A DNA stretch of 18,875 bases from Actinomycetes bacterium (GTDB lineage: Bacteria > Actinomycetota > Acidimicrobiia > Acidimicrobiales > Palsa-688). The stretch covers positions 1 through 18,875 of the forward strand of contig JAKBBA010000063.1 in assembly GCA_021808665.1 (NCBI GenBank), given 5' to 3'. A program made the position numbers and the translations under genes. Shown here in pieces: positions 1 through 18,222 of this stretch (positions are counted from its first letter, which is position 1; the number at the start of each line of letters is the position of its first letter). Below the pieces are notes generated by a model that was not told the origin of the DNA, searched no databases, and was given only the letters and a program-made list of their open reading frames with translations.

Positions 1-1
1 C

Positions 2-115
2 CTGCACGCGCTGCGCCACACCGCCGCCTACCGCATGGCCGAAGACCCCGCCCTGCCGTTGACCGACGTGCAGTGGGTCCTCGGGCACGTGCACCTGACC
101 ACCACCCAGATCTAA
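2..115 (+). pseudogene. Tyrosine recombinase/integrase, C-terminal remnant (5' end outside window)
   Basis: The first 37 readable codons encode the end of a phage-type tyrosine recombinase. The box II signature is visible as ALRHTAA near the start, followed by VLGHVHLTTTQI. In this family the next codon is the nucleophilic tyrosine (QIY); here it reads TAA (113-115), so the protein stops exactly where the catalytic Tyr should be. The H-x-L-R-H motif and the second His (LGH) are present, so the gene was once a normal integrase. The break coincides with the start of the intergenic DNA that precedes the intact recombinase operon, which suggests interruption by that element, although a point change TAC to TAA would look the same. 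The N-terminal portion lies outside the window. It is almost certainly non-functional as it stands. Confidence 0.75.
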
Positions 116-131
116 GAGAACCCTCGGGTAT

Positions 132-252
132 TGCATCAGACGCGAGAGAAAGCGCAGGTCGCCTGTGGATACAGGGCTTGGAGTGCGTCGAGTTGCTGGG
201 CTGTGAATGCCTCCTGAGCAGGCGGGTTTGACGGGCCGTCCCGTCTGATGCA
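132..252. repeat. Perfect 11-bp inverted repeat upstream of recombinase operon
   Basis: TGCATCAGACG (132-142) and its exact reverse complement CGTCTGATGCA (242-252) bracket 99 bp of non-coding DNA just upstream of the recombinase gene. A small hairpin (CCTGT at 162-166, ACAGG at 171-175) sits between them. The stretch 116-289 has no convincing gene. The repeat could be arm-type recombinase binding sites, an element end, or an operator for the HTH protein of the operon; the sequence alone does not decide. Confidence 0.6.
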
Positions 253-289
253 TGATCCCATCCTTCAACGGGAATGACAGGAGTGTGGT

Positions 290-1402
290 TTGGGACGTGG
301 GGATCTGGCCGGCGCGGCGCGTCTGGAGCTGGTGTCGGGGGTGGCGCAGCTTCGTCCGGAGGACGCCATGTTCGAGGCGATGCTGCGCGGCTGGCGGGCG
401 CAGCAGACCGCCCGGGGGTTGCGGGAGGACACCATCGCCGGGCGGGAGCAGCTGGTTCGGCGGTTCGTGGAGTTCACCAACGAGTACCCGTGGGGCTGGT
501 TGCCGGCCCATGTGGAGGAGTTCACGCTGTGTCTGACCGCTGAACGCCATCTCAGCCCGGCGACGGTCCGCAACTACCAGATCGACGTGCGTCTGTTCAG
601 CGAGTACGTGACCGATGCCCGCTACGGGTGGGGTCGGGCGTGCGAGGAGGCGTTCGGGCCGGGGGTGCACCCCGTCGCGGTCTGTCATGAGTGGAACACC
701 ATCGCTCATCTCAACGAATACGAGGGCAGTCCCGAGGCCCGGCCGTTCAGCCGGGAGGAGCTGCAGACGTTCTTCGACTTCGCTGATGATCAGGTGGAAC
801 GGGCGGTGGCCGCGAAACGCAAGGGGGTGCTGGCCGCCTACCGCGATGCCACGCTGTTCAAGGTGATCTATGGGTGGGGGCTGCGCCGCAACGAGACAGC
901 GAAGCTGGATTTGGCCGACTGGGGCCGCAACCCCGCGGCAGCGGAGTTCGGCCGGTTCGGGATGCTGCATGTCCGTTACGGCAAGGCTGTTCGAGGTCAG
1001 CCGCCCCGGCGACGTAACGTGTTGTCGACGATGGGCTGGGCGGTCGACGCGGTGGCCGACTACGTGGAGAACGTCCGGCCCCGCTTTGGGGTCGGCGATC
1101 ACCCGGCGTTGTGGGTGACGGAACGGGGCGGGCGGATCAAGCCGGCGGAGATCAACGCCCGTTTCGTCGCCTACCGTGACGCCCTGGGCCTGTGCCGGGA
1201 ACTGACACCTCACTCGCTTCGCCATTCCTATGTCTCACACCTCACCGAGAACGGGGCGGATAGGCGGTTCCTGCAACAGCAGGTGGGTCACCGCTGTGAC
1301 ACTTCGACCGCCATTTACACCCATGTGAGCTCCGATTTCATGAACACGGCTCTACGAAAGGCGCTCTCGCCGGTCTTGGGCGACGATGGAAAGGAGCAGT
1401 GA
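290..1402 (+). CDS. Tyrosine-type site-specific recombinase, first gene of a three-gene recombination operon
   Basis: Complete tyrosine recombinase of about 370 residues that should cut and rejoin DNA through a 3'-phosphotyrosine. Numbering from the TTG at 290, the SAM-like core-binding domain covers roughly residues 25-115 and the catalytic domain 145-355. All catalytic residues are recognisable: R199 in GLRRNE, K232 in the beta-hairpin (YGKAV), H308 and R311 in HSLRH, H334 in VGH, and nucleophile Y343 in AIYTHV. The TTG at 290 has AGGAG 6 bases upstream (279-283). An ATG at 368 (residue 27) has a stronger GGAGG at 358-362 with 5-base spacing, so a 344-residue product is equally likely. The stop TGA overlaps the ATG of the next gene (TGATG), so translation is coupled. 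It is probably the catalytic subunit of an integrated element formed with the two genes downstream. Confidence 0.9.
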   Translation: MGRGDLAGAARLELVSGVAQLRPEDAMFEAMLRGWRAQQTARGLREDTIAGREQLVRRFVEFTNEYPWGWLPAHVEEFTLCLTAERHLSPATVRNYQIDVRLFSEYVTDARYGWGRACEEAFGPGVHPVAVCHEWNTIAHLNEYEGSPEARPFSREELQTFFDFADDQVERAVAAKRKGVLAAYRDATLFKVIYGWGLRRNETAKLDLADWGRNPAAAEFGRFGMLHVRYGKAVRGQPPRRRNVLSTMGWAVDAVADYVENVRPRFGVGDHPALWVTERGGRIKPAEINARFVAYRDALGLCRELTPHSLRHSYVSHLTENGADRRFLQQQVGHRCDTSTAIYTHVSSDFMNTALRKALSPVLGDDGKEQ

Positions 1403-1722
1403 TGACCGCCAAGTTGGACTACCGCTGGAGGCTGCGACAGGTGATGGCGGCCCGGGAGATGTTCGCCACCACCGATCTGATCCCGGAGCTGGCCAAAAGG
1501 GGGATCCGGCTGTCGTCGAGCCAGGTGTACAGGTTGGTGGTGGAACGACCCGAACGGCTAAGCCTCAAGGTGCTCATGGCCCTGTTGGACATCTTGGACT
1601 GCAAGATGGAGGACCTGATCGAACCTGTCGAGGCCCCCAAGGCCCGCCGCTCCAAGGCGGCGGCCGGCGGCGGCGAAACGGGGATCGGCGACCTGCGCCC
1701 CAAACGGGCCCGCATCCGATAG
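1402..1722 (+). CDS. Small Cro/C1-type helix-turn-helix protein, second gene of recombination operon
   Basis: A 106-residue basic protein. Residues about 20-72 read as a Cro/C1 (XRE, HTH_26-like) fold: LIPELAKRGIRLSSSQVYRL forms the helix-turn-helix, followed by the usual LSLKVLMALLDILDCKMEDL helices. The tail (about 78-106) is low-complexity, rich in Lys, Arg, Ala and Gly, and probably disordered. ATG at 1402 is chosen because AAGGAG (1391-1396) is 5 bases upstream and the codon overlaps the recombinase stop; a GTG at 1399 is also in frame. The next gene starts immediately at its stop codon. By position it may act as repressor of the operon or as a directionality or accessory factor for the recombinase, as small partners do in Tn554-like or phage systems; that role is inferred. 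Confidence 0.8.
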   Translation: MTAKLDYRWRLRQVMAAREMFATTDLIPELAKRGIRLSSSQVYRLVVERPERLSLKVLMALLDILDCKMEDLIEPVEAPKARRSKAAAGGGETGIGDLRPKRARIR

Positions 1723-4167
1723 GTGACCGCCGAGTTTTCGAAGGCGCTGTCGGATCCTGTCGGCGTCGTGGTGGGACTGGTGACGGAGCTGGAGCCGGCC
1801 ATGGAACACTCGACGGTCACTGACATCGTGGAGCGGGTCGGGGGCGGCCGGGCGAAACGTCGCCGTCTCGCCCAGTTCCTCCTCGACTCCCCGGCGGTGC
1901 TGGCCGACGGCCGCTCCCCGGCACCCCGCGTGGTTGGGAACCTGCTCATCGCGCTGCGAGCCGCTGGAGCGCTGCAGGTGTCGCCGCCGGTCTGCGCAAC
2001 CTGCGGGAAGGGCCTGCGGACCTTGCAGCGGCGCGGCGACGATTGGTACTGCGCCCGCTGTGGCCCCCACCGGGAGCCATGCACGGCCTGCGGTCTGACT
2101 CGCCCGGTCTCCGGGCGCGACAGCGACGGACGCCCCCGCTGCGTCGGCTGCCCACCCATCGACGAGCGAGAACCGCTCGAGGTCATCGTCGAGGTGGTGA
2201 CCAACCTGGACCGGACGATCCCCCTCGAAGCGGTGATCGGCGCCGTGAACGCCGCAGCGACCAACGCCGGCCAACGCCGCCGGCTCGCCTGGGCGATCAA
2301 CGAACGGCCCGAGCTGCTCACCGGGGCGGGCGCCGAAGCGCCGGTCCCGTCGGTGCTGAGGCTCATAGACCGGCTCTGCGCTGCCGGGGCCATCCACATC
2401 GTGGCCCCGGCCTGCCCGCACTGCCGGCGAGTCATTGCGCTCGTGAAACCCCGCGACGGCCTGCGGTTGTGCCGCATGTGCGTGGCCCGCTCCCGAGCCG
2501 AGCCCTGCGCCCGCTGCGGCGCCGTGCGAGAGCCCGCCACCCGTGACCAAGCCGGGGCGGCGATCTGCCCGTCCTGTCTGATCCGAGACCCGGTCAACCA
2601 CGAGACCTGCTCGTCGTGCGGGCGGCTCCGGCCAGTCAGCGTCCGCGGTCGCCGTGGCGTTATCTGCGAATCCTGCCGTCCGGCCAAGGTTGCTACCTGC
2701 GCCATCTGCGGGCGTCACGGCCCGGCCCTGATCTCAGAGACCACCGGGCGACCGTGGTGCCGGGCGTGCAGCCAACGCTGGGTCCGCTGCAGCCGCTGCG
2801 ATCAGTTCCGACCGCTGCGAGGCGGCAGCGTTGACGAACCGCTCTGCGGCCCCTGCACCCGTCCAGAGCCGGGGTTCTGGAAAGCGTGCACCGGCTGCGG
2901 GCAACCCGGACGCATCCACGCCGGGTACTGCCCTCGCTGCAGCGTTGACCGGCGGCTGCAGCAACTTCTCGGCGACAACTCCGGGACCATCCGGCCGCAA
3001 TACCAAGCGCTTTATCAGGCTCTCACAGCTACGGAACGGCCCACGACCGTGGCTCGCTGGCTAGACCAAAGCGCGGCTCCGACAATCCTGCGTGCCCTCG
3101 ACACCGGCGACAACCTCTGCCATGAAGCTCTCGACAAGCTGCCGCCGAGCAAACCGCTCGAGCATCTCCGTGCCGTCCTGGTCGCGATCGGGACCCTGCC
3201 CGCCCGAGACGAGCAGATGGTCCGCCTCGAACGCTGGATCACCGCCACCATCGCCGGCCGCAGCGACCCTGACGAGAAAAAACTGTTGCACCGTTACGCC
3301 ACCTGGCACGTGCTGCGCCGCCTCCGCCGTCGAGTCGGTGACGCCACCACGAGCTACAACCAGAACTTCTCTGCCCGCCAACGAGTCAGGGCCGCCATCG
3401 CCCTGCTCGACTGGTTGGCCGGGGCTGACCTCACCCTGGCGACCGCCGGCCAAGGAGACCTCGAAGCCTGGCTGGCCAGCGACGACGCCACCCACCGCCG
3501 CGACATGGGGAACTTCGTGCGCTGGGCCCACAGGCAGAAACTGACCACTCTGGAGCTGCCCGCTGTTCGCTGGGCAGGCCCGACCGGCCTCATCGATACC
3601 GAAACCCGATGGGAACAGGCCCGCTGGCTGCTCCATGACGACAGCCTCGAACCCGGAGATCGCTTCGCCGGGCTCCTCGTTCTCCTCTACGCCCAGTTCC
3701 CAGCCGCCATCAGCCGCCTCACCGTCAACGACGTCGAGATCACCAACGGCAACGTTCGGCTGCGACTCGGCCCCGAACCTGTCATCCTGCCCGAACCTGT
3801 CGCCACTCTCGCTCTCCAACTGGTCGCCGACCGACAAGGACACGCTGCAATCGGCCACCAACCACACTCGCAGTGGCTGTTCCTCGGCGGCCAGCCAGGA
3901 CGACCCATCGGAGAGGGCCGTCTCGGCGAACGGCTCCGGGCCCTCGGCCTCCGATCCGGACAATCCCGATCCACCGCCCTGTTCCAACTCGCAACCGAAC
4001 TCCCCGCCGCGCTCCTGGCCCGGATGCTCGGCATCAACATCAGCGTCGCTGTCGCATGGCAACACGCCAGCGCCGGCGACTGGACCACCTACGCCGCCGA
4101 CTACAGCCACCGAACCGACCACCACCACGCCGCTGGCCCCAACAACTCCCATCCCGCCCTTCCCTGA
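1723..4167 (+). CDS. Zinc-ribbon-array protein with catalytically dead tyrosine-recombinase domain, third gene of recombination operon
   Basis: An 814-residue protein. Residues about 91-406 carry 16 CxxC motifs, which pair into eight zinc-ribbon-like modules. The first four sit in two copies of a duplicated unit (about 11-145 and 148-285), each a helical segment (RRRLAQFLLDSP / RRRLAWAINERP) followed by two ribbons; four more ribbons follow in series. Residues about 545-610 resemble the SAM-like core-binding domain, and 640-800 resemble a tyrosine-recombinase catalytic domain (RFAGLLVLLYAQFPAAISRL, LLARMLGINISVAVAWQHAS). Every catalytic position is lost: box I GLR reads QFP, H-x-L-R-H reads STALF (750-754), LGH reads LGI (769-771) and no Tyr follows at the right distance. 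GTG at 1723 abuts the previous stop, so it is translationally coupled; an in-frame ATG at 1801 is an alternative. It is likely a DNA-binding partner of the active recombinase. The exact family is not recognised. Confidence 0.8.
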   Translation: MTAEFSKALSDPVGVVVGLVTELEPAMEHSTVTDIVERVGGGRAKRRRLAQFLLDSPAVLADGRSPAPRVVGNLLIALRAAGALQVSPPVCATCGKGLRTLQRRGDDWYCARCGPHREPCTACGLTRPVSGRDSDGRPRCVGCPPIDEREPLEVIVEVVTNLDRTIPLEAVIGAVNAAATNAGQRRRLAWAINERPELLTGAGAEAPVPSVLRLIDRLCAAGAIHIVAPACPHCRRVIALVKPRDGLRLCRMCVARSRAEPCARCGAVREPATRDQAGAAICPSCLIRDPVNHETCSSCGRLRPVSVRGRRGVICESCRPAKVATCAICGRHGPALISETTGRPWCRACSQRWVRCSRCDQFRPLRGGSVDEPLCGPCTRPEPGFWKACTGCGQPGRIHAGYCPRCSVDRRLQQLLGDNSGTIRPQYQALYQALTATERPTTVARWLDQSAAPTILRALDTGDNLCHEALDKLPPSKPLEHLRAVLVAIGTLPARDEQMVRLERWITATIAGRSDPDEKKLLHRYATWHVLRRLRRRVGDATTSYNQNFSARQRVRAAIALLDWLAGADLTLATAGQGDLEAWLASDDATHRRDMGNFVRWAHRQKLTTLELPAVRWAGPTGLIDTETRWEQARWLLHDDSLEPGDRFAGLLVLLYAQFPAAISRLTVNDVEITNGNVRLRLGPEPVILPEPVATLALQLVADRQGHAAIGHQPHSQWLFLGGQPGRPIGEGRLGERLRALGLRSGQSRSTALFQLATELPAALLARMLGINISVAVAWQHASAGDWTTYAADYSHRTDHHHAAGPNNSHPALP

Positions 4168-4275
4168 AAGGCATTCGGACAGTTGGAATATCCGAGTCCG
4201 CCAGAGCACATCCTGGAGGAGACAGCGCGGGCTGCAGCACAGCAGGTTGGCGCTGCGTTGTGGGGGGCGTCGTAG
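4168..4275 (+). other. In-frame open tail after the zinc-ribbon gene, possible gene remnant
   Basis: After the TGA at 4165-4167 the same frame stays open for 35 codons to a TAG at 4273-4275, and the translation looks protein-like (EHILEETARAAAQQVGAALW). It may be the C-terminal scrap of a gene interrupted by the recombination element, the original tail of the zinc-ribbon protein, or chance. The rest of 4276-4429 shows no gene. Confidence 0.25.
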
Positions 4276-4408
4276 CGCGCAGCGCTGCCAGCGGCGGGTG
4301 ACGACCGGTCCTGATCCGGACTCGGCCCAGGCCTTTCAAGCACAGACTTATGCCAGTCACTGAATAGGCTTGAATAAGGATCCGATCGAGGGGCAGCGGC
4401 GACCCCCG

Positions 4409-4421
4409 GCGCGCTGCGCGC
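4409..4421 (-). terminator. Possible hairpin downstream of the hsdR remnant
   Basis: GCGCG-CTG-CGCGC lies 9 bases beyond the stop codon of the minus-strand hsdR remnant. The arms are short (5 bp) but pure GC, and there is no T tract. It could act as a weak terminator. Confidence 0.3.
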
Positions 4422-4429
4422 AATGCCCT

Positions 4430-6495
4430 TCACGCCGCCTCCGCAGCGGCGCGGACATGATCCAGAACCGCTACGAGGCGATCGACCTCCTCCGAGGTGA
4501 ACAGATCATCCGGGCCGTGCGGGGCGGTATCAGTGAAGGGAGACTCGTACAGCAGCGCCGCTCCCATGACCCCGTGTTCGGTGAGGTGGTTGATGACGAG
4601 ATCGATGAACTCGATCTGATTGCCACTGAGCGTGCGCCCGGAGAGGAAGTCGGCGAATGCCTCCTTCGCAGCCCCTCGGTCAAGCCCGATCAGAGAACGC
4701 ACGAAGAGGCCCATTCCTTGGCTCTCCTCCTTCGCTCTCGCAATGGTCTCCGTGTCTCCGATGCCGTTCTCCGCCAGCATGCTCTCCAGGGCCTCCAGGT
4801 CCCTCGGGGTCAACGGCTTGTTCATCCGGAGGCGGTGGATGGCGATGTGGTCCTGGTGGTCACGGAGGAACACCCGAGCCTTCGCCCTGAATCGCTCCAT
4901 GTCGTGGGATGGTGTATGCCCAGCAGGTCGAACGACGTGGCCTCACCGATCTCGTCCTCGAAGTCGGTGAACAGCAGGTTCCGATTCCGCTTCTCGATGA
5001 ATCGAACGAGGTTTCGCAACTTCTTGCGGACCTGCTCCAGCATCACGACGGTGACGTCCTGCCACCATTCCTCGGACTGGAGCTCCTCCAGGACCACGAG
5101 CTGCTCCCTCACCATCGGGATGTTGGCTTGTTCTTCGAGCATCGCGGCGATCGCGATGACCTAATCCCGCAGCTTGCTGAACCGCGGATCGTGCCGCAAC
5201 ACGGCAAGCTGCAGGTTGAGCATCAGGAGGTCAAAGCGCTTGGCCTCCTCCTCTTCCGCCTCAACGTCAGAGGGAAGCGGTACGACCTCCGACGCCAGCT
5301 CGTGGAGGTCATCCTGCCCCAGCACAGCCCATGCCTCTGCTTTGGCGAAGCGCTCGACGTGCTCCCGTTTCGGGCGCACGACGAAGTTATCGAGGTTCAT
5401 GGAGGCCACGACGCCGTGCAGGAGTGAGGCCGTTTCGGACCGCAGCTCGCCGTCTTCCTCTCCCCGAGCCGCCGAAACCTCGCCTCGGTCAAGCTCGGCG
5501 ATGAGATCGAGGCGGGTCGTGAACAGCTTGGTGCTCAGCGTCGTACCCAGACGTCCCTCCGCGGTTGCCGGGTCCAAGCTGAAGAATTCGAGGTTGCCGC
5601 AGTAGTCAAGGATGAAGAAGCTTTTCTTGTCGTCGCCCGGCCCGAAGAGATCGGGGCGGAGCCCTGGTTCCCCATCCCACCATTTGCCAAAACTTCGTCT
5701 TGGAGCGGACCTGCTTGAAGAACACGAGGTTGGCGACATCCGGCACATCGATGCCGGTATCGAGCATGTCGACAGAGACAGCGATGTGCGGTGCCTTGGC
5801 CGAATCCGAAAAGTTTTCAATCAGCGACTGGGCGTAGGTGACGCCGTGGTGGACGGTCCGCGCAAAGGCACCTTTGAACTTCGGATAGTTCGCGTCGAAG
5901 CGCTCGACGATGAAGTCCGCGTGCGCCTGGTTCTTGGCGAAGCTGATCGTCTTGCCGATCCTGTCGCCGCCGGGGACCCGCTGGCCGTCGGTCATGAGGT
6001 GGGCCAGGACCTTGCCGACGGTGTCCTCGTTGAAGAGCCACGCGTTCAGTGCCGATGACTCCACGCTGTCGGGAATCGGGTCGTCGTCACCCCACTCCAA
6101 GGCGTCCCATTTCTCCTGCTCCTCAGGAGAGAGGTCCTTGTACCTGATGCCCTGGCGTTGGAACTTGATCGGCACAGAGACGGCAATGGGCGGGACGAGG
6201 AAGCCTTCCTTGATGGCATCGTCGAGCTGGTAGGCGTCGGTCGGGACTCCCCGCTCCAGCTCGAAGAGCTGGTACGTGTTCATGTCGACCTCATCCTTGG
6301 GGGTAGCGGTCGGACCGACAGGCAGGCTGTCGAAGTAGTCGAAGATCGCCCGGTACTTCTGGTACGCGGAACGATGCGCCTCGTCAATCACGATGAGGTC
6401 AAAGTGGCCAGGACCGAATCGCCGGTGTCCTTCCTGCATCTCGTCGATCAAGCCATAATCGTCGGGTACGTCGAGACGTAGACCCGTCCATCGCC
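4430..6495 (-). pseudogene. hsdR: Type I restriction enzyme R subunit, C-terminal half, multiply disrupted
   Basis: Reading right to left, the fragment covers the second half of an HsdR motor subunit: VYVSTYPT (6460s-6480s), the DEAH box (VIDEAHRS), motif III as PTATP, the second RecA domain (TGIDVPDV, QMVG), then an EcoEI-type C-terminal domain ending at 4430. The nuclease domain and Walker A half are absent; the gene is cut at about 6485-6500 by an IS1380 fragment. Lesions seen: a one-base loss near 6453 (GCC for expected GCCC), a one-base gain in CCC at 5662-5664, CAG to TAG at 5161-5163 (LRD-stop-VIAIAA), and a frame change near 4905-4920. Motif VI reads GWGTR instead of GRGTR, losing the arginine used in ATP hydrolysis. 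No hsdM or hsdS partner is in the window. The gene cannot make an active restriction subunit. Confidence 0.88.
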
Positions 6496-7097
6496 GTGGC
6501 GCTCGGCATGACCCTCCGCTCCAACGTTGCCATCAAAGCAGCGACCGCCGCCATCGCCGAGACGGCGTGGGTCGACATCGCCTACACCGACAACGCCGGC
6601 GCCGCCCAGGTCGCCGAGTGCCCCTACAACGGTCTCCGGCTGATCGTGCGGCGCGCCCGACTCGCCGAGAGCGAACAGCCGGCGCTGTTCCCAACCTGGC
6701 GACACCACAGCTTCCTCACCGACCTCGCCGCCGACACCGTCGCTGTCGACCGGTTCCACCGGCATCACGCCGTGGTCGAACTCGCCATCCGCGACCTGAA
6801 AGAGAACGCCGGGCTCGGCCATGTCCCCTCCGGGCATTTCGCCGCCAACGGCGCCTGGCTCGCCTGCGCCGTGCTCGCCCACAACCTGATCCGCTGGACC
6901 GCCACGCTCGGCCACTTGGTCCCCGACGACCAGACCTACACCGTCGGCCCCCCCGGATCCGCCACGTCGCCATGCCCGCCCGGCTCGTCAACCGCGCCGG
7001 CACCCTCACCCTCCGGGCCCCGGCCCGCTGGCCATGGGCCACCCAGTTCGCCATCGCGCTCGAACATCTCCGGGCCCTCCAGCCCGCCACCGGCTGA
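6496..7097 (+). pseudogene. IS1380-family transposase, C-terminal fragment with frameshift
   Basis: The reading frame matches the last third of actinobacterial IS1380-type DDE transposases: WVDIAYTDN, a long insert, LFPTWRHHSFLTD, DTVAVDRFHRHHAVVE with the catalytic-region Glu, LKENAGLGHVPSGHFAANGA and LAHNLIRW. The N-terminal two thirds with the first catalytic Asp residues are missing. The frame breaks in a run of seven C at 6948-6954; downstream the correct frame (IRHVAMPARLVNRAGTLTLR, then ALEHLRALQPATG and stop at 7097) is the +2 frame relative to the start of the fragment. The left edge abuts hsdR directly, so an insertion followed by deletion removed both hsdR's 5' half and the IS 5' end. 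It cannot encode an active transposase. Confidence 0.8.
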
Positions 7098-7284
7098 CCA
7101 CCAGCCCGACGGACCGGGCGCCCCGTCAGCACCTCACCCAGCCGCCGACAACACGCCGATCACGACCATGAACCCGTGGCCGACAACGCCCCAGAACCAG
7201 CCCAGCGCAAACCACCCGCTCGCCAAGCCGGCGACCCGCCAACACCCCCTCGCTCAGCCCGAGACCGTGGATTCAGGCTTAGCC
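6496..7284 (+). mobile_element. IS1380-family insertion sequence, right-hand remnant
   Basis: The transposase fragment is followed by about 165 bp of Pro/Ala-coding-like low-complexity DNA with no gene. It ends near GACCGTGGATTCAGGCTTAG (7263-7282), which resembles the terminal inverted repeat region of actinobacterial IS1380 elements. The left terminal repeat is not present, so no target duplication can be identified. The right boundary is approximate. Confidence 0.6.
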
Positions 7285-7440
7285 ATGGCGCGAGAGGTAC
7301 AGCGTTTCGGCCTACAGCCGGCGGACTGCCAGCGCCTGAAACCGTCGGGCAGTCGAAAAAAAGAACCTTGAAATAACCCCCGCCAAAGACGCAGGTCGGA
7401 ATAGTCTCCAGAGTTCGCTTGCTCGTCACCCTGGGCGACT

Positions 7441-7515
7441 CGGCGCCAGCTGGTACTCCAGGAGCACTTGCGCCACAACGCTGCGCGAGCTACTCTCGAC
7501 ATCTATATCGACTGG
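7441..7515 (+). pseudogene. Possible integrase C-terminal scrap
   Basis: Translation in the frame of 7441 gives LVLQEHLRHNAARATLDIYI, which fits the end of a tyrosine recombinase: Q-E-x-L-R-H, then T-L-D-I-Y with the nucleophile-like Tyr at the usual distance. There is no upstream catalytic domain in any frame and the continuation is not integrase-like. It is about 25 codons long and could be chance. The surrounding 7285-7790 holds no other supportable gene. Confidence 0.3.
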
Positions 7516-7557
7516 AGGGGGTTCAGTGGTGATGCATTTTTCGGGAGGGGCGCTGGG

Positions 7558-7599
7558 GCCCAACCTTCGGCGCGAGTGGCCCAACCTTCGGCGCGAGTG
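7558..7599. repeat. 21-bp direct tandem repeat, two copies
   Basis: GCCCAACCTTCGGCGCGAGT followed by G occurs twice head to tail (7558-7578 and 7579-7599), and GCC follows as the start of a third unit. The copies are identical. It lies in the non-coding spacer between the IS1380 remnant and the amidohydrolase gene. The length is a multiple of three, but no convincing gene covers it. Confidence 0.85.
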
Positions 7600-7801
7600 G
7601 CCTGCGTCAGACATGTGGCGGCTTCGCTACCCGGCCGCGCCCAGGGGCCCGTCCGCCAGTTCGAAGAATCGCAATGGCGCTCGTTACGAGCTCGGCTATT
7701 CACCGAGTCCGATCAGGGGGCGGGCTACCCAAATGAGCCCTCAGTGCCGGGCGGACGGCCGCCAGCGACTTGGAATGACTCTCGATCAATGAGGAGTGAA
7801 T

Positions 7802-9529
7802 ATGCACGACGTCGTCATTAGGGGTGGAACCGTCGTCGATGGGAGTGGCGGTGCCACAGTCCACGCAGACGTGGCTATCGATGACGGACTCATCAGTGAG
7901 ATCGGACAGGGTGTCACTCGTGGACGAAGGGAGGTCGACGCGTATGGGCTGGCCGTCACGCCGGGATGGATCGACATCCACACCCACTATGACGGCCAAG
8001 CACTGTGGGACCCGGACCTCACACCGTCGTCGTGGCATGGGGTGACGACTGCGGTAATGGGAAATTGCGGTGTGGGCTTTGCGCCCGTGCGTCCAGGGGG
8101 CGCCGAGCTTCTCGTGGAGATCATGGAGAGCGTCGAGGACATCCCCAGCGAAACGCTCCATGCGGCACTCGACTGGTCTTGGGAGTCCTTCGGCGATTAC
8201 ATCGATGCGCTAGCCGCTCAGCCACGCACGATTGAGCTCGCGACGCTGGTTCCGCACATCGCTCTCCGGGCCTACGTCATGGGAGAGCGCGCGCACGATG
8301 AGGTCGCCACCCCCGACGATATTGTGCAGATGTCTGCGTTGGCGGAGGCGGCGCTCAAGGCGGGTGCCTGCGGCATCAGCACGAGTCGCTCGCCGGTACA
8401 CGCATCCCGTCACGGTTACGTTCCAGGTACGTATGCGTCGCGCAACGAACTCTTCGGGTTCGCCGAGGCCATCCGTCGAGCAGGCCACGGCGTCTTTCAG
8501 TTGCTCAGCGATAAGCGGGGCAACGCAGAGGACCGCGATTGGATGGTCGACTTCGTTCGCCACACCGGCACCACGCTGACCTACATTCTGAGCCAAACGG
8601 GAAAGGCTCCGACGGCCTACCGCGACTCGCTGGCGGCGGCCGCTGCCGACCTGGCCGCAGGCGTCCCGATCGTCCCGCAGGTCGCGTCCCGCCCAGTCGG
8701 GACATTGCTGGGTTTGGACTGTACTCTGCACCCGTTCGTCACCAGCCCGACTTGGAAGCGTCTGGAAGGCATACCACGGGCCGAGCGCATCGCTGCGTTG
8801 CTCGATGCTGACCTTCGCGCCGCAATGATTGCCGAGCCCTACGATCCGGAAGATCTGCGCATCCGATCACGTGTTCGTATGGGAACATGGCAGCGCTGGG
8901 ACATGATGTTCCGCCTTGGCGACCCGCCAGACTATGAACCCGAGGCGTCGAAGAGCGTGACGGCTGCCGCCGCAGCAACGGGTCGCTCACCGGCAGACGT
9001 CGCCCTAGATTGGATGCTGGACCGTGACGGTCGCGGCTTGATCTTCTCCCCCTCGGTCAACTACGTCGACGGCAACCACGACGTGCTACGCGAGCTGATC
9101 ACTCACCCGGCGACGATCACGGGGCTCTCGGACGCCGGAGCCCACTGCTCCACAATCTGTGACGCCAGCGTTCAGACCCATATGCTGAGCCATTGGGTGC
9201 AAGGTCGCGTTCGAGGCGAGCGGCTATCGCTCCAAGAGGCAGTCGAGCTGCAGACCGGTCGACCAGCTCGCTTGTTTGGGTTCACCGATCGCGGCGTACT
9301 CGCACCAGGCAAGCGGGCCGATGTCAACATCATCGATGTAGAGGGTCTAGCCATCGATCCGCCGGAGATGATTTTCGACCTGCCGGCGGGTGGCCAGCGG
9401 CTGGTGCAGCGCGCCCATGGTTACGTGGCCACCTTCGTTCGCGGCATCACCACGCTCGAGCACGACGAACTCACAGGCGCCCGTCCGGCAGGCGTGGTGC
9501 GCCCAACCGCAGCAGTGGAGAATGGGTGA
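7802..9529 (+). CDS. Amidohydrolase of the D-aminoacylase / N-acyl-D-amino-acid deacylase type
   Basis: Cytoplasmic metal-dependent hydrolase of 575 residues in the amidohydrolase superfamily (amidohydrolase_3, D-aminoacylase-like). The N-terminal strand is typical (VVIRGGTVVDGSGG). Metal ligands H60 and H62 lie in DIHTHYDG and Cys89 in GNCGVGFAP; the 29-residue spacing matches D-aminoacylase H67/C96. D444 in LSDAGAHCS is the probable catalytic Asp. The two later His ligands expected in D-aminoacylase are not seen; the segments read VFQLLSDKRG and TYILSQTGKA, as I recall for the mycobacterial Rv2913c-type subfamily. ATG at 7802 is chosen because AGGAG (7792-7796) is 5 bases upstream; a GTG at 7796 overlaps that site. 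The gene is intact although it lies between degenerate elements. The natural substrate is unknown; it could be an N-acyl amino acid or a cyclic amide. Confidence 0.85.
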   Translation: MHDVVIRGGTVVDGSGGATVHADVAIDDGLISEIGQGVTRGRREVDAYGLAVTPGWIDIHTHYDGQALWDPDLTPSSWHGVTTAVMGNCGVGFAPVRPGGAELLVEIMESVEDIPSETLHAALDWSWESFGDYIDALAAQPRTIELATLVPHIALRAYVMGERAHDEVATPDDIVQMSALAEAALKAGACGISTSRSPVHASRHGYVPGTYASRNELFGFAEAIRRAGHGVFQLLSDKRGNAEDRDWMVDFVRHTGTTLTYILSQTGKAPTAYRDSLAAAAADLAAGVPIVPQVASRPVGTLLGLDCTLHPFVTSPTWKRLEGIPRAERIAALLDADLRAAMIAEPYDPEDLRIRSRVRMGTWQRWDMMFRLGDPPDYEPEASKSVTAAAAATGRSPADVALDWMLDRDGRGLIFSPSVNYVDGNHDVLRELITHPATITGLSDAGAHCSTICDASVQTHMLSHWVQGRVRGERLSLQEAVELQTGRPARLFGFTDRGVLAPGKRADVNIIDVEGLAIDPPEMIFDLPAGGQRLVQRAHGYVATFVRGITTLEHDELTGARPAGVVRPTAAVENG

Positions 9530-9631
9530 CGGACACCAGCATAAGAGGCCACGCTTATCGCTCCGACGCAAGGGCCTAGAAGGCTCGTCCCGGGATGCGC
9601 AGTACCCATCGGCCTGACCGAGGGAGATTCG

Positions 9632-9748
9632 GTGAGCCCTCGCACGGATCTCCTTCGACTCTCTCAGGCCACCTTCTACTCAGAGTCCGGCCTGCTCGTC
9701 GAGTCGCATCAGTCTCCCTCGGACTTTCGCATCCGCCTGTGGGGTTGA
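9632..9748 (+). CDS. Short open frame of 38 codons, unknown
   Basis: GTG at 9632 is preceded by AGGGAG (9621-9626) at 5-base spacing and the frame runs to TGA at 9746-9748. The product would be 38 residues (starting MSPRTDLLRLSQATFYSES) with no recognised domain, signal or membrane segment. It sits between the amidohydrolase gene and the broken acyltransferase. It may be a real small gene, the remains of a longer one, or chance. Nothing else is seen in 9530-9757. Confidence 0.25.
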   Translation: MSPRTDLLRLSQATFYSESGLLVESHQSPSDFRIRLWG

Positions 9749-9757
9749 GGGCCTGAA

Positions 9758-9775
9758 CGTTAGTGGCGTCTAACG
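9758..9775. promoter_or_regulatory. Perfect palindrome upstream of acyltransferase pseudogene
   Basis: CGTTAG-TGGCGT-CTAACG: 6-bp arms around a 6-base spacer, 19 bases before the ATG of the WS/DGAT remnant and just ahead of its GGAGAGG ribosome binding site (9782-9788). The shape fits a TetR-type operator; a weak hairpin is the alternative. Confidence 0.45.
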
Positions 9776-9794
9776 CAGATCCGGAGAGGTCGAG

Positions 9795-10097
9795 ATGAAG
9801 CAGCTAAGCGGTTTCGATGCGGGGGTTCTTGTTCACGGAGACTGGCCGAGCATTCGGTCACTTAGCCGGTGCAGCTGTGTTTCGTCGGCCGAGCGACCCT
9901 TGCTGGTCGCCCCACGAGGCCGTCTTCCGCCAAATTCAGCTCGGCCTTCCTGTCCTCGAACCCCTGCGCCAGGCGCTTGGTAGAGGTGCCGTTCCAACTC
10001 GACTGGCCCTACTGGGTGGAAGACCCGGACTTTGACCTCGAGTTTCACATCCGCGCGACTGCGATCCCCTCTCCCGGAGGGCTCGAACAGCTTCGTA
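9795..10097 (+). pseudogene. Wax ester synthase/diacylglycerol acyltransferase (WS/DGAT), N-terminal fragment
   Basis: Start of a WS/DGAT-type acyltransferase, which joins acyl-CoA to alcohols or diacylglycerol for storage lipid. The frame opens MKQLSGFDAG, then shifts because of an extra G in the GGGGG run at 9821-9825 and continues as FLFTETGRAFGHLAG and WSPHEAVFRQIQLGLPVLEP. A second shift comes from an extra A at 9971, after which RLVEVPFQLDWPYWVEDPDF and DLEFHIRATAIPSPGGLEQL follow. The similarity ends at about 10097 where an ISL3-type transposase fragment begins on the other strand. The HHxxxDG active-site motif, expected some 35 residues further on, is absent. ATG at 9795 has GGAGAGG 6 bases upstream. 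Confidence 0.85.
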
Positions 10098-10935
10098 CCG
10101 TCAAGCCGGCCGTTGCTGATCCGCCTGGCTTTGGGGTGGTGGAACGCGATGATCTCGTCGCCCCAATCGCGCAGAGCCCGGACGACCCCGTCGAACTCGG
10201 GGATCGTCCCCGTCTCTGCGAGATCGCAGAAGTCCATGATGGCGGTGAGCGCGCCCTGCTTGTCCTCGGCGAGGTAGGCGCCGTGGAGTGTCTGGAGGGC
10301 CTGCCAGGCGGCGGCCAGGCGGGGGTGGGCCTCGAAGACGGGGATGAGCCGGGCGAGGGCTTCGGGTTCGAGGTGGTCGGCCCCTCAGGCGCAACAGGGC
10401 GAAACGGGCCCGGAACACCTCGGGATCAAACACCGGGGTGACCTCCCCGGCGGGCTGGCGTCGTTGCACCTCGCGCCGCACCGCGCTGAGCCCCGCCGCG
10501 AACCAACGGACCACGTGAAAACAGTCCAAGACGTGCACGGCGTGACCGAGATCGGCCTCGACCGCGGCACGGTACGCACCCGATCCGTCGGTCACCACCA
10601 CCTCCACCTGAGCGCACCACCGCCTCCCCTGGGCAGCCAGAAAGCCGTGCAACGCCTGAGCGTTGCGGTGGGAGACCATCGCCAACAGCTCACCGGTCTC
10701 ACCGTTCTGCAACACCGTCACGTACCGGTGCCGCCGTCGCATCGACGTCTCGTCAACCAGCAACACCCGACAGCGCCCCCGGCGGCGCCGCTGGCCGACC
10801 TGGTCCGCCCACGAGCGCACCAGGCCCATCACCGTCGCCCACGACACGCCGTGGCGGCGTGCCACCGCCCTGATCGCCATCACCTTTGCGTCGACGACGA
10901 GCTGACGGGCCAGGCGGGTGGTCACCCTCCCCTCG
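10098..10935 (-). mobile_element. ISL3-family transposase fragment, both ends missing
   Basis: Read right to left, the DNA encodes the central part of an ISL3-type DDE transposase: TTRLARQLVVDAKVMAIRAV, a helix-turn-helix-like segment (VARRHGVSWATVMGLVRSW), first Asp in VLLVDETSM, second Asp in VVVTDGSGAYRAAV and DCFHVVRWF. The frame then shifts near 10376-10390, after which AIMDFCDLAETGTIPEFDGV and IIAFHHPKARRISNGRLDG follow. The N-terminal zinc-binding domain and the last C-terminal segment are absent, and neither terminal inverted repeat is visible. It lies antisense within the WS/DGAT pseudogene and replaces its middle. It is inactive. Confidence 0.8.
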
Positions 10936-11560
10936 GACGGTCAACGACATCGTGGTGGCAGCCTGCGCAGGCGCACTGCGCACCTACCTGCTTGAGAAGA
11001 ACGCCCTGCCGGCTACACCGCTCGTGGCGATGGTCACGGTGTCGATCCGCACCGGGGTTGAGACCGACCGCTGGACCAACCGGGTGTCCCGCTCTTTTTC
11101 CTCCCATCCCCACGGACGAGTCAGATGCCTGGATGCGGGCGAGCCGGGTCCACCAATGGATGAGCGAAGCGAGCAATCGCTTTGCGCTTCTTCCTGCGGC
11201 CCTATTAGCGGACTATGCCTCCCTTGCACCCGTCGCCCTCGCTTTCGCGCACCCCGAGTTGCGTCGCGGTTCAAACTCGCCGGCCGAGTGGGGCTTCCCT
11301 TCAACTTGGTTATATCGAACATCCCCGGCTCTCGTGGAGCCCTCTGCCTCGAAGGAGCGGAGATGGAGCACTACTACCCGGTATCGACGATTGCCGACGG
11401 GCATGGCCTCAACATCACGCTGCAGTCGTATCGTGACGTCTTGGATCTTGCGATTGTCGCCGACCGGGCCATGGTTCCTGACGTGGGCGACCTGGCCGAC
11501 CTCTTGCAGGAAGAGTTCCACAGTCTTCACAGCCTTAAGTGGCTGAGCTTCAGATCCTGA
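10936..11560 (+). pseudogene. WS/DGAT acyltransferase, C-terminal fragment
   Basis: Similarity to WS/DGAT resumes with RTVNDIVVAACAGALRTYLL and LVAMVTVSIRTGVETDRWTN. A frameshift near 11090-11105 moves the match to another frame (IPTDESDAWMRASRVHQWMS, FALLPAALLADYASLAPVAL), and a second near 11240-11260 restores the first frame (LPFNLVISNIPGSRGALCLE, EHYYPVSTIADGHGLNITLQ, IVADRAMVPDVGDLADLL). The stop is at 11558-11560. The family motif PxNxxxSNVPGP-like (PFNLVISNIPG) is kept. Compared with full-length WS/DGAT proteins, about 130-150 residues between the two fragments are missing, including the catalytic HHxxxDG. Four frameshifts in total show long-standing decay. Confidence 0.85.
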
Positions 11561-11750
11561 TCGCAGACCACCTTCGCACCGAGGTTACGCGGCCAGGTCG
11601 ATGAAGGCCGTCCCGCAACGGAGACGGCGTCGACAGGTGCTGGTGTATCACTCGTGGGGCTCCACGCGAATGGCTCCCTCGGGCACACCTGTGAGACCCG
11701 CTCGGTTCCGCTAGGCGCGCTCGTCCTTGCGGGGTGAGTTCTGGAATCGC

Positions 11751-11779
11751 TTGCGAGCCCAAGCGTGCCCCACTAGAGT
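11751..11779 (+). promoter_or_regulatory. Candidate promoter of the phosphotransferase gene
   Basis: TTGCGA (11751-11756), 17 bases, TAGAGT (11774-11779) fits an actinobacterial housekeeping promoter. It would give a leader of roughly 75 bases. The rest of 11561-11860 shows no gene. Confidence 0.45.
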
Positions 11780-11860
11780 CGACATGGTTATCGATTTCAA
11801 GTCGGGCTCCGCCGCTGGTCCGACAGGACCCGTAGTTTGCGACCTGAGGGAGGGATCGCG

Positions 11861-12922
11861 TTGAGCTCACTGATAGTCCCGGTCACGCTTCAACTTCCGA
11901 CCGGCATCGAGGGGATGACGCCGGCGTTCTTCAGTTCCGCCCTTTCGACGTGGCACCCCGCAACGACGGTCACTGAAGTTCGGATCGGCCAGGTGATTCC
12001 CGGCACGGCTACGAAGCTCGCAGTCGAACTCGAATACGGAACCGATACCACCCTGCCGTCCCGGATGTGGGTGAAAGCCGGCTGGGAGAAGCACTCGGCC
12101 GCCGTCACCGCACAGTATCGAGCCGAGGTCACGTTCTACAGCTGCATCGCGGATAGCCTCGACATCAACACGCCGCAGTGCTACTTCGCTGGCATCGATC
12201 CGGTCAGCGGCTCAGGACTATTGCTACTCGAGGACCTCACCCTCCGCCCCGTAACCTTTGGTGACGCAACAAGGCCGATCACAGTCGATCAAGTCGCACA
12301 AGTGCTCGGCCTCCAAGCCAACTACCACGCTCGGCACTGGAACAGCGAGATCCTGTGGGCGCCCTGGCTTAAGGGTTCGCATAACGAGTCGACCTTCCAC
12401 GAGACGATGGTGTCGGAGGAGCATTGGTCCCGTCACCTCGCTATGCCGAGAGGAGAGTTGCTACCGCCTCCGCTGCGAGATCGGCACCGAGTGGCAGCCG
12501 CCCTCGCCCATATCTTTGAGATCACTTCGACGCCGCCCGAGCCGTGCCTGATCCACGCCGACCCCCACCTCGGCAACCTCTTCTTCGAAACCGACGGCCG
12601 GCCAGGTCTCCTCGACTGGCAGTCGCCGCAACGCGGCCACTGGGCTCACGATGTCACCTACACGCTGATCAGCACGTTGAGCGTCGAGGACCGTCGGGCG
12701 CACCAAGGTGATCTCCTGCACGGCTATCTCCGTGACCGTGCTGCGCTCGGTGTCGCGGTTCCACACTTCGATCAGGCGTGGCACGCATATCGGCAGCACG
12801 TTATCTATGGCTTCATGTGGAGCATGTGCCCGCCGGAGATCCAGGCAGAGGAGAACGTGGTCGCCATGACCGAACGGTTCGCCACTGCGGGTATCGACCT
12901 GGACACACTCTCAGTCGTCTAG
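11861..12922 (+). CDS. Phosphotransferase, aminoglycoside phosphotransferase (APH)/choline-kinase fold
   Basis: Cytoplasmic kinase-like protein of 353 residues that should transfer phosphate from ATP to a small-molecule hydroxyl. A hinge-like LLLLEDL lies in the first half. The catalytic loop is HADPHLGN (H232, D234, N239), and LLDWQ (D252) is the metal-binding Asp equivalent to DFG. TTG at 11861 is chosen because AGGGAGGG (11847-11854) lies 6 bases upstream; a longer frame from 11837 has no such site. Proteins of this fold in actinobacteria are often found in lipid, steroid or xenobiotic gene clusters, not as resistance genes; the neighbours here are acyl-CoA and alcohol enzymes, so a catabolic role is more likely than antibiotic resistance. 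The substrate cannot be read from the sequence. Confidence 0.8.
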   Translation: MSSLIVPVTLQLPTGIEGMTPAFFSSALSTWHPATTVTEVRIGQVIPGTATKLAVELEYGTDTTLPSRMWVKAGWEKHSAAVTAQYRAEVTFYSCIADSLDINTPQCYFAGIDPVSGSGLLLLEDLTLRPVTFGDATRPITVDQVAQVLGLQANYHARHWNSEILWAPWLKGSHNESTFHETMVSEEHWSRHLAMPRGELLPPPLRDRHRVAAALAHIFEITSTPPEPCLIHADPHLGNLFFETDGRPGLLDWQSPQRGHWAHDVTYTLISTLSVEDRRAHQGDLLHGYLRDRAALGVAVPHFDQAWHAYRQHVIYGFMWSMCPPEIQAEENVVAMTERFATAGIDLDTLSVV

Positions 12923-12931
12923 ACCTCGCGT

Positions 12932-12947
12932 TCACCGCAGTCGGTGA
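12932..12947 (+). terminator. Hairpin after the phosphotransferase gene
   Basis: TCACCG-CAGT-CGGTGA, a perfect 6-bp stem with a 4-base loop, begins 10 bases after the stop codon in the 151-bp gap between two convergent genes. No strong T tract follows (a TCCTTTGTCC stretch lies about 13 bases on). It may be a terminator for the plus-strand gene. Confidence 0.4.
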
Positions 12948-13073
12948 CGTCATCTGTCGGTCCTTTGTCCTGTGATTGTTGGAGCCTACGTGGTGCCGGA
13001 CTTGCGATAGCAACATTGCACCGCTGACCGTCGCGCTCCGCCGTTGGTGTCGGCTAGTGCGCATTTGCCACCA

Positions 13074-14543
13074 TCAGCGCTCGATCTCGCCTGTCGGTGC
13101 TCGGCGGACGGTTTCTCCAGCGAGACCGCTCGTCATCATCGCCTTGATCATGCCAGGATCTGTCGAGGTCGCCCAGCCCCGGCTTGCAGACAGCGGCCCG
13201 GGCCCACGCATTGCCGCCAGCACGTGGGATGGCCCGTTGCGGTCGAAGACGACGGTGGCCGCCTCGACCGTTCCCTCACCACTCCACCAGCGGGCAAGTT
13301 GCATCCTGTTCTGCTGGACGACGCTCGCCTGGCAGTCGTCGAAGATGAACTGCCGAGGCGGAGTGTTCGAATAGACACCGAACGCGTGCTTCGTCGCGTG
13401 ACCGCCGTTCCCGTGCACGACGCCCCAGCCTCCCGCTCTGAGCAGTGGCACCATCGCAGCGATTGACTGTCCCGTCGCGTTCCCGACCGCCGCCCCTGCG
13501 AATCCGAGCCCTCCGGTGACCGTTAGCTGGCGCTCCATTCCGAACCCCAACGCCCGAGCACTCATACGCACGACGGCTGGGAAGCAGGCGTAGAGGTCGA
13601 TGTGCTCGACATCGTCGGGCCCGATCCCAGCATGACGGAGCGCCGCTGTGCCCGCCGCCGCCAGCGCAGGGGAACCGTGCAGCTCGTTGCGCTCAACCAC
13701 CAGCCATGTCTCGTGCGCCTTGGTCACCGCATGCGGGAACACCATCCGGTCCAACGCCACCCCGAAGCGCCGAGCAGCCGTGGTACTGCACAGCAGAACG
13801 GCCGACGCCATGTCCACGTCGTTGTTGGCGACCATAGCCTTCGTGTATGGAAAGGCGATCATCCGGTTATCCGGGCGAGCGTCCCGGATGTCCTCAACCG
13901 AGTGGGCCTGGCGATGCCAGGCGAAGGGGTTACGGGCGGCCACCTGGCTGAAGCGAGCCCACAGGTCCGCCAACCGGGACCGATGGTCGCCGACCGTCTC
14001 GCCGTCCGCGACCCGCATGCTGTCACTCATGAGCGCATACGCAGGAGCCGCCACCCCGAACATACGGAACTCCTCGGTGACGGCGGCGTCGTCAGGGAAG
14101 GCGGGAACCAGCTCTGGATTCCCCTCCCCAACCGCTGTCGACCAGGGCGGGGCCTGACCGGCTCGCTTGAGACGTTTGGAGCTGTAGCGAGCCTCGCCCC
14201 CGACGACGAGCGCTACATCGACCTGCCCCCGGGCGATGAGGTCGGCAGCACGGCCGACCATCTCCTGTGGAGCGCTTCCCGAGATGGAGCTCAGCGCGGT
14301 CTTTGCAGATCGACACCCGATCATCTCGGCGACCAGTGCGCCGGGGTCACGGTAGCGCCAGTAACCGCCGGCCACGCCGAGCCACTCGACATCCAACAGC
14401 ATCCGGTCCGAGCCGGCATCAGCGGCTGCGGACAGGGCCGCTTCCGCCATGAGGTCAAGTGGTCCTGCGAGGCCCGATAGCCCTGTGCCAGGGCGCTGGA
14501 TCACCTGGGCGGCACCGGCTATGGCTGGGATCCCTACGCTCAT
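13074..14543 (-). CDS. Thiolase-like protein (acetyl-CoA acetyltransferase family, TLP1-like), nucleophile Cys replaced
   Basis: A 489-residue thiolase-fold protein, last gene of the minus-strand cluster. The N-terminal half contains SSISGSAPQEMV (85-96), where thiolases have the nucleophile in a C-x-S-G context; here the position is Ser86. Other thiolase landmarks are altered too: GLGFAGAAVGN (345-355) has Asn where the G-H-P His lies, and the C-x-G-G motif becomes HGNGG (377-381). About 75 residues after 415 form an extra C-terminal domain like that of mycobacterial thiolase-like protein 1. ATG at 14543 is preceded by AGGAGGAGG at 7-base spacing, so it is well translated. It may bind or process acyl-CoA thioesters without classic Cys chemistry, or work with a partner. 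The gap to the upstream aldehyde dehydrogenase gene is 66 bp, consistent with one operon. Confidence 0.8.
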   Translation of the reverse strand: MSVGIPAIAGAAQVIQRPGTGLSGLAGPLDLMAEAALSAAADAGSDRMLLDVEWLGVAGGYWRYRDPGALVAEMIGCRSAKTALSSISGSAPQEMVGRAADLIARGQVDVALVVGGEARYSSKRLKRAGQAPPWSTAVGEGNPELVPAFPDDAAVTEEFRMFGVAAPAYALMSDSMRVADGETVGDHRSRLADLWARFSQVAARNPFAWHRQAHSVEDIRDARPDNRMIAFPYTKAMVANNDVDMASAVLLCSTTAARRFGVALDRMVFPHAVTKAHETWLVVERNELHGSPALAAAGTAALRHAGIGPDDVEHIDLYACFPAVVRMSARALGFGMERQLTVTGGLGFAGAAVGNATGQSIAAMVPLLRAGGWGVVHGNGGHATKHAFGVYSNTPPRQFIFDDCQASVVQQNRMQLARWWSGEGTVEAATVVFDRNGPSHVLAAMRGPGPLSASRGWATSTDPGMIKAMMTSGLAGETVRRAPTGEIER

Positions 14544-14609
14544 CGTCCCGCCTCCTCCTGGTCCGCATCCACGTGCCGTAGGGCCGACGACAGATATGCA
14601 GGGGTAGCG

Positions 14610-16064: not shown

Positions 16065-16135
16065 TATTCACATCCAAGTACCGGAAGTGGATGTGAAGCC
16101 CTCAAGCCTGACCCGCCCCAAGCCATTGACTCGCC

Positions 16136-17020
16136 TCACTCTTCGTCCTTGCGCCAAGCTGAGTGATCACGGACCGCATCCCCCGCAAACTGGATCGCCA
16201 CCCGGGCGAGGGTGCCCCCGTCCGCTGAAGGAAGGACCGCTCCGGACATGTAGGCCGAGTCATCAGACGCCAAGAAGAGGGCCACGTTGGCGTTGTCCCT
16301 TAGCGACGGGGGGCGACTGAGTTTCAATGGCATTGGCGCCACCGACGGGTCCCACGACCCTGCAGCCTCCTCGTAGGACATCCCGACGACTGGGGAGCCG
16401 GGGGGCTGGAGGAAGTTTGGACTCATACCGTGTGTAGGCGCGAGGGCATTTACGCGGATGCCGTACTTGCCGAGGTCAAAGGCAAGGTTGCGGACGAGGC
16501 CGTTGACCCCGGCCTTCGTCGCTGTGTAGGGACTAATGTTCGGGTACGCAGCAAAGGATGCAGAGGAGGATGTCACCACCATCGATCCCCCTCCGTTCTT
16601 GCGCATCGGAGCGATGACGTGCTTACAGGTGAGAAACACTCCGGTGAGGTTGACAGCGAGCACTGCGTTCCAGTCATCGAGAGGATAGTCCTCCACCTCG
16701 ACAGACTCGCCACCCAGGACACCTGGGACACCGCCGCGGGAGATGCGCCCCGCGTTTGCAAAGGCCACGTCAATCTTCCCAAACGCTGCCAGCCCATCAG
16801 CCACTCCACGGGCCAAGTCCGCCTCCTTCGAGACGTCCCCCTCGACAGCAAGGGCATTGCCCCCTTGGTTTCGAACAAGTTTCTCGGTCTCCGACGCCCG
16901 GTCGCCCAAGATGTCGAAGATGACTACGCTCGCCCCTTCTGCTGCAAAGAGTTGAGCACTCTCGCGTCCGAGACCGGAGCCCCCACCAGTGATAAATGCA
17001 ACCTTGTCCTGAAGCCTCAT
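16136..17020 (-). CDS. Short-chain dehydrogenase/reductase (classical SDR)
   Basis: Complete 294-residue SDR. TGGGSGLG (11-18) binds the dinucleotide; Asp36 at the end of the second strand (IFD) favours NAD over NADP. FANAG (87-91) is the structural NAG motif. The catalytic set is N124, Ser152 in VTSSSASF, Y165 and K169 in SPYTATKAG. The C-terminal part (SPNFLQPPGSP, LFLASDDSAYMSGAVLPSADG) contains the substrate loop and the usual closing motif. GGAGG lies about 10 bases before the ATG. It is the second gene of the minus-strand cluster; the enoyl-CoA hydratase gene ends 131 bp upstream of its start. Likely a secondary alcohol or 3-hydroxyacyl-CoA dehydrogenase; the pathway position after a hydratase suits the latter, but this is inference. 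Confidence 0.93.
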   Translation of the reverse strand: MRLQDKVAFITGGGSGLGRESAQLFAAEGASVVIFDILGDRASETEKLVRNQGGNALAVEGDVSKEADLARGVADGLAAFGKIDVAFANAGRISRGGVPGVLGGESVEVEDYPLDDWNAVLAVNLTGVFLTCKHVIAPMRKNGGGSMVVTSSSASFAAYPNISPYTATKAGVNGLVRNLAFDLGKYGIRVNALAPTHGMSPNFLQPPGSPVVGMSYEEAAGSWDPSVAPMPLKLSRPPSLRDNANVALFLASDDSAYMSGAVLPSADGGTLARVAIQFAGDAVRDHSAWRKDEE

Positions 17021-17151
17021 CGCAGTTCATCCTCCGGGTGATCGGTTGTCGTGTCGGTGCGCACGGAACAATGCGGCTCGGTGCCGGCACTCGACACCAA
17101 TGTCGAATCCTATCCCAGATCGTTGGCTAGGACAAGGGTCGCCCACGGCCT

Positions 17152-17952: not shown

Positions 17953-17958
17953 CTAGCC

Positions 17959-17972: not shown

Positions 17973-18007
17973 CTTGCTCAGTCGCTTGCGGCCGATAGGA
18001 GGCCTTT

Positions 18008-18205: not shown

Positions 18206-18222
18206 GATGACGGGAGCGGCGG

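Follow-up and report, generated by a model that had tools for sequence, protein, structure and literature searches.

Analysis of an 18,875-nucleotide contig of an Actinomycetes bacterium (JAKBBA010000063.1, positions 1 to 18,875, hereafter the window) indicated that three adjacent genes, g1, g2, and g3, form the transposition module of a site-specific tyrosine recombinase (YR) transposon. The transposon is about 4.0–6.4 kb long, sometimes with cargo, and appears to target the DNA encoding the Tyr box (T-T-x-x-Y-x) of other YR genes, a reading to which we assign a probability of roughly 0.85. The element has fixed ends and one exact empty site and inserts just past the Tyr codon of its target; the gene trio is conserved, and a YR fold is predicted for the g3 product.

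Insertion sites in other tyrosine recombinase genes

The target was examined at 50 readable, distinct insertion sites, each with a recognisable left end and a readable left flank. Twenty-six of them formed a first set (including L023, found by its left-end pattern), and 24 came from flank-blind pattern scans of genomes. A YR gene was present at 42 of the 50 sites (23/26 in the first set and 19/24 in the flank-blind set), and at 38 of these 42 exactly 3 nt, or one codon, separated the junction from the Tyr codon. The strict Tyr-box motif was found in the right phase at 36 sites compared with 496 of 200,000 positions drawn at random from the same DNA, itself rich in recombinases, and TAY occupied positions -6 to -4 at 43 sites compared with 0.8% of random positions. 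Among 392 Streptomyces genomes, the flank-blind left-end pattern detected 26 sites, distributed over 22 of the genomes, and its reversed-pattern control detected 0.

Forty of the 42 YR assignments were made by motif or Pfam. Beyond the strict motif, Pfam assigned the window, L084, L085, and L123 (the window and L123 under the cut-off). A Pfam scan of 30 flank frames placed PF00589 over the cut-off in 21 and under it in five (L019, L077, the window, L123, and L128), with no PF00589 in the other four (L081, L121, L127, and L130). Loci outside the 50-site count were those in which no left flank or end was found (L001, L004, L005, L006, L008, L015, L017, L018, L020–L022, L075, L076, L080, L086, and L088), distant loci with the left end present and a flank that is not YR (L087 and L097) or with no such left end (L095, L096, and L098–L106), one masked locus (L119), and duplicates of counted sites (L091, L114, L115, and L124).

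The element was inserted in the same orientation as the victim gene, and the victim YR genes were diverse. They included a prophage integrase in an IMG/VR contig (L023), g1 of sister trios (L009 and L074), and Tn554-like recombinases. Nesting in a sister-trio g1 was observed in L009/L006 and in L074, the halves from Streptomyces sp. SM1 lying on separate contigs.

Element ends, empty sites and gene content

The ends were located with four contigs of Streptomyces sp. SM1, which are identical over 4,605 bp and have two left and two right flanks. L007 and L009 diverge leftward at AACCCTCGGG, and L006 and L008 diverge rightward after CCACCATTA. The contigs share the element but differ in their flanks, and therefore at least two copies exist. 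The left end in the window, at 119, is the same point at which the SM1 contigs diverge, and the right end, at 4206, was placed by alignment with other right ends. The features of the window are as follows:

1–118 (+): part of the catalytic domain of a different, interrupted YR, LHALRHTAAYRM...VLGHVHLTTTQI (Pfam PF00589; sequence and frames)
119–4206 (+): whole element, 4,088 bp (SM1 contig divergence for the left end, right-end alignment, and the exact empty site of a relative)
119–139 (+): left terminal sequence AACCCTCGGGTATTGCATCAG
132–252 (no strand): subterminal inverted repeat, arms 132–145 and 239–252, 93% complementary (also in L012, not in L084)
290–1402 (+): g1, active tyrosine recombinase, 370 aa; Y343 at 1316–1318; codon -18 at 1304–1306, TCG
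1399–1722 (+): g2, Cro/C1-type helix-turn-helix (HTH) protein, 107 aa
1723–4167 (+): g3, degenerate recombinase partner, 814 aa
1993–2940 (+): g3 residues 91–406, 16 CxxC motifs, zinc-ribbon-like array with putative zinc binding
3265–4110 (+): g3 residues about 515–796, predicted YR core-binding and catalytic-type fold with Trp779 as nucleophile position
4170–4206 (+): right terminal sequence GGCATTCGGACAGTTGGAATATCCGAGTCCGCCAGAG
4207–4275 (+): C-terminal tail of the interrupted target gene, HILEETARAAAQQVGAALWGAS, ending in a stop codon (frame carried on from the left flank)

The interrupted fragment at 1–118 (36 aa) matched PF00589 at profile positions 130–163 of 172 with an E value of 1.3e-5 and 25.5 bits, under the curated cut-off of 27.1, and the tail of this target resumes in frame at 4207. 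Element length ranged from 4,048 to 6,414 bp over the 21 loci having both ends. Right ends mostly finish in CATTA, or in CAGAG in the window, L001, and L073, though the left flanks differ. Some loci carry cargo, identified by Pfam, in the interval from g3 to the right end (HAD hydrolase in L077, GNAT in L078 and L088, and SDR in L080). At 6327–6364 of L013, the right-end sequence of a second element directly abuts the left end, a tandem accretion at one site.

An exact empty site was found for L084, located on plasmid pDK3 of Rhodococcus DK17. Its joined flanks aligned gap-free and with full identity (500/500 bases) to pRHL2 of R. jostii RHA1, and the insert measures 4,067 bp, with neither duplication nor loss. 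In pRHL2, the integrase gene is whole and is followed by the same partner protein (WP_237724009.1). This plasmid figures in a published list of actinobacterial Tn554-like elements (PMC3414803). The target of L012 is uninterrupted in genome G527 (74% over 397 bases), and the joined flanks of L082 cross the junction in one piece in five other mycobacterial plasmids (80–87% over 190–211 bases). Identical empty sites for L082 or L074 were not found in plasmids, where L074 matched its own record only. The initial annotation was right in proposing that the trio is a mobile integration module; the ends of the element and the insertion in the catalytic-Tyr region of another recombinase had been overlooked there.

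The three genes abut on the same strand. g1 was identified as a YR by Pfam (PF00589; E value, 3.7e-19) and keeps all the catalytic residues (R199, H308, R311, H334, and Y343), which are invariant among 17 aligned YRs; the Phage_integrase domain and the R, H, R, H, Y set place it among the YRs. g2 belongs to the family HTH_26. The combination of an active recombinase, an HTH protein, and a large partner, as first described from the window, was confirmed.

Homologs of g3 numbered 1,182 among 7,995 scored candidates, and matches also occurred in 22 genome loci and 252 plasmid records. Of 394 genomes sampled from the class of Streptomyces, 73 had a match, often partial and at 27–40% identity; in the phylum of L001, 1 of 101 genomes had one, namely L001's own. 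The phage collection and the viral contigs gave no g3 match; the left-end pattern did pick one viral contig, with the element inside an integrase gene. Comparison of neighbours, which had been suggested as a check, demonstrated that the genes do not mostly occur apart: the order g1–g2–g3 was kept in 44 of 49 loci, and g2 was present in 47. Loci qualified for this set when 380 or more residues of g3 were matched and 1,500 bases were available upstream; the SM1 contigs were counted separately, and L019 was scored as lacking g1 and g2, though both sit 2 kb further upstream. The g1 stretch of L003 (6543–7613) has an internal stop codon in this copy.

The 16 CxxC motifs of g3 lie within residues 91–406 and form a putatively zinc-binding array. 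A YR-like fold with core-binding and catalytic domains was predicted at the C-terminus (residues about 515–796), in which the nucleophile position is Trp779, a Trp in 71/71 aligned homologs. With its Tyr nucleophile replaced by Trp, g3 falls outside the active YRs. Tyr790, 11 residues past Trp779, is kept in 70/71 homologs and might conceivably serve as an unusual nucleophile. No family scored over the cut-off for g3 in Pfam, nothing was found at an E value of 0.1 in NCBIfam or PHROGs, and a sequence search of the PDB gave nothing under 0.098, with XerD at 0.31. In sum, the g3 product combines a predicted YR fold of degenerate catalytic character with zinc-ribbon-like motifs. The initial annotation had described a YR fold with lost catalytic residues and zinc-ribbon motifs and had pointed to structure prediction of the C-terminus as a check; the predicted fold, Trp779, and the CxxC motifs agree with it.

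Downstream of the element, the window contains pieces of a broken type I restriction HsdR-like gene (EcoEI_R_C, ResIII) on the minus strand at 4430–6451 and an Amidohydro_3 protein of 577 aa at 7796–9529. A partial IS1380-type transposase (6496–7371, plus strand) and a partial ISL3-type transposase (10101–10925, minus strand), both under curated cut-offs, are further mobile-element remains.

Proposed mechanism and alternative explanations

How the target is read, and with what role for g3, we infer as follows. g1 would cut and join through a circular intermediate, and g2 and g3 would bind the ends and/or the target; the 14-bp subterminal inverted repeat is a putative binding site. Within the synapse, the dead YR of g3 may occupy a position at which no cutting takes place, and the zinc-ribbon array of g3 may read the flanking DNA. 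Upon insertion, the victim loses its C-terminal tail and is therefore probably disabled, and the element would hitch-hike on the mobile element of its victim. A single codon may separate self from non-self. In 44/44 rows of the clade (duplicates included), the codon located 18 bases ahead of the would-be junction in the element's own g1 is TCN (Ser), whereas in the targets this codon is ACN (Thr) in 32/39 and TCN in 2/39. The Ser codon possibly confers self-immunity by preventing the element from inserting into its own box.

More distant trios were also examined. Relatives at about 30–38% identity have other targets, and no Tyr-box targeting was seen in those whose left flank was read (L086 and L105 are not among them). 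ACN occupied position -18 in 12/12 distant trios. L104, for which both flanks could be read, is inserted, as judged by motif, at box II of a YR gene, and the left flank of L095 is also box II. These flanks read HALRHTYASVL and HDLRHAFATML, respectively, and a YR Tyr box follows the trio in L104. The left flanks of L099 and L102 (DHVHLGF and HYDHLHWT) are peptidase-like by eye and perhaps represent another motif-coding target.

Several observations weigh against targeting of Tyr-box DNA. No movement of the element was seen, and the roles of g2 and g3 are putative. Eight of the 50 sites are outside YR genes (L013, L081, L094, L117, L120, L121, L132, and L138), and specificity is therefore not absolute. 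Among them, L013 is in tandem behind another right end, L081 and L094 are in IS3-like and ISL3-like transposases (by eye), and L121 is in a 2'-5' RNA ligase-like gene (under the cut-off); L081, L094, L121, and L132 nonetheless carry TAY at -6 to -4. L127 and L130 were called YR by eye only, without a Pfam match. Instead of 3 nt, the distance from the Tyr codon to the junction is 7 nt in L084 and L085 and 6 nt in L131. The sites are partly non-independent, with several per genome (e.g., L133, L140, and L141), and the target consensus at the DNA level is weak and inseparable from the protein constraint on YR genes. The Tyr codon of the window's interrupted YR (113–115) reads TAA, which leaves the exact exchange there unclear. 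Profile comparison of the g3 C-terminus with g1 was negative. As for self-immunity, two targets carry TCN, and the Ser codon is common by descent in one clade and may therefore reflect a single event.

A YR gene lies directly upstream at 42/50 sites, mostly in the same frame phase, as would also be expected of a fixed fourth member of a multi-recombinase operon like recombinase-in-trio (RIT) elements or GInts. This explanation is highly improbable. The upstream YRs differ in kind (one with a DUF6262 partner in L083, a prophage integrase in L023, sister g1 in L009 and L074, and forms of about 680 codons in L007 and L011), the identical SM1 element stands behind two different upstream YR genes, the right flanks carry on the same gene, and the empty site already refutes it, as pRHL2 has the gene uninterrupted. 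Standard sites keep the catalytic Tyr followed by an in-frame, element-encoded tail (NPRELHQ...), so that a functional hybrid recombinase acting for the element could result. We consider such a tail swap unlikely: differences among 10 left ends were distributed 307/296/370 over codon positions 1/2/3, a slight position-3 excess without clear codon-position bias, L084 and L085 do not preserve the frame of the tail, and in the window the YR frame already ends at the Tyr codon.

YR-fold phage regulators exist that are not known to have recombinase activity, and g3 might likewise be a repressor or regulator and not part of the recombination complex. We give this somewhat more credence than the tail swap and still doubt it, as g3 is the last gene of a recombinase operon and accompanies g1 and g2 in 44/49 loci, its best-scoring rows are active YRs, and the element has an HTH protein already. 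A trio that inserts the element at Tyr-box DNA remains our preferred reading. We further propose, tentatively and at somewhat less than even odds, that these elements are a hyperparasitic family with the catalytic-Tyr codon region of rivals as homing site, which would stay available because its loss would kill the rival's enzyme. The dead zinc-ribbon recombinase would help to find this site, one Thr-to-Ser codon would mark self, and sister families would use other motif-coding DNA, at least one of them on YR box II.

Relation to known systems and biological meaning

In the literature searched, mostly without subscription papers, we found no description of elements that insert into rival recombinases at the catalytic-Tyr codon region. 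Dead or degenerate YR partners are already known, and the suggestion of the initial annotation that such a partner would be new in mechanism does not hold, given the precedents of Tfp in SEs and, in part, GinC in GInts. SEs carry Tfp, a YR-fold protein without catalytic residues (PMC10214605). GinC is described as lacking the RHRY motif (PMC10214605) or the first Arg alone (PMC5385486).

Tn554 and actinobacterial Tn554-like elements (TnpA, TnpB, TnpC; PMC3414803) share with the trio an operon that encodes a YR of normal size together with a large partner and a small protein, as well as site specificity and insertion without target duplication, the last being observed here at the one exact empty site (pRHL2). 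Both large proteins of Tn554 have the RHRY motif (PMC10214605, figure legend), whereas here the large partner is dead and g1 alone keeps the residues, the small protein is of the HTH type, and the order is YR–HTH–large. A Tn554-like two-integrase element is itself the victim of the trio element at the pRHL2 site. SEs, which resemble the trio in their YR-fold protein without catalytic residues, differ in having four genes (intA-tfp-intB-srap), two active YRs, a few selected sites, and a mainly gammaproteobacterial distribution (PMC10214605); the module here has three genes and one active YR. SEs also carry a variable 6-bp footprint, which is taken from the left flank of the donor and placed at the new right end (PMC10214605). 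The CATTA or CAGAG finish of right ends whose left flanks differ argues, tentatively, against such a footprint here. GInts (ginABCD; PMC5385486) are similar in that the YR-like GinC, without at least the first catalytic Arg, lies beside active YRs and a small extra protein, but they comprise GinD in addition to three YR-like genes, are flanked by imperfect direct repeats, and use targets such as ssb (PMC5385486). The gene content of the trio differs from ginABCD, and no repeat was present at the one exact site.

RIT elements consist of three adjacent YRs with catalytic residues, whereas g2 is an HTH_26 protein and g3 is without the Tyr. The GMT trio was weighed by NCBIfam names only, and no paper on it was found. 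The Tn5053/Tn402 family transposes by a DDE mechanism, with res sites close to serine resolvases as targets. The trio has no DDE protein, and its target is YR coding DNA, at the active-site codons. The two are alike in seeking the recombination systems of other mobile elements. Transposons of the Tn5053/Tn402 family are known as res site hunters (PMC7765201).

If the preferred reading is true, the trio would belong to a mobile element that specialises in invading, at the active site, the integrases carried by phages, by plasmid-borne elements, and by other transposons. Lodged there, it would spread along with the invaded elements and might also immobilise them. It would also account for the truncated integrase genes beside recombinase–HTH–hypothetical trios in actinobacteria, and the trio would provide a system for inserting DNA at a defined motif, together with a one-codon test of self-immunity.

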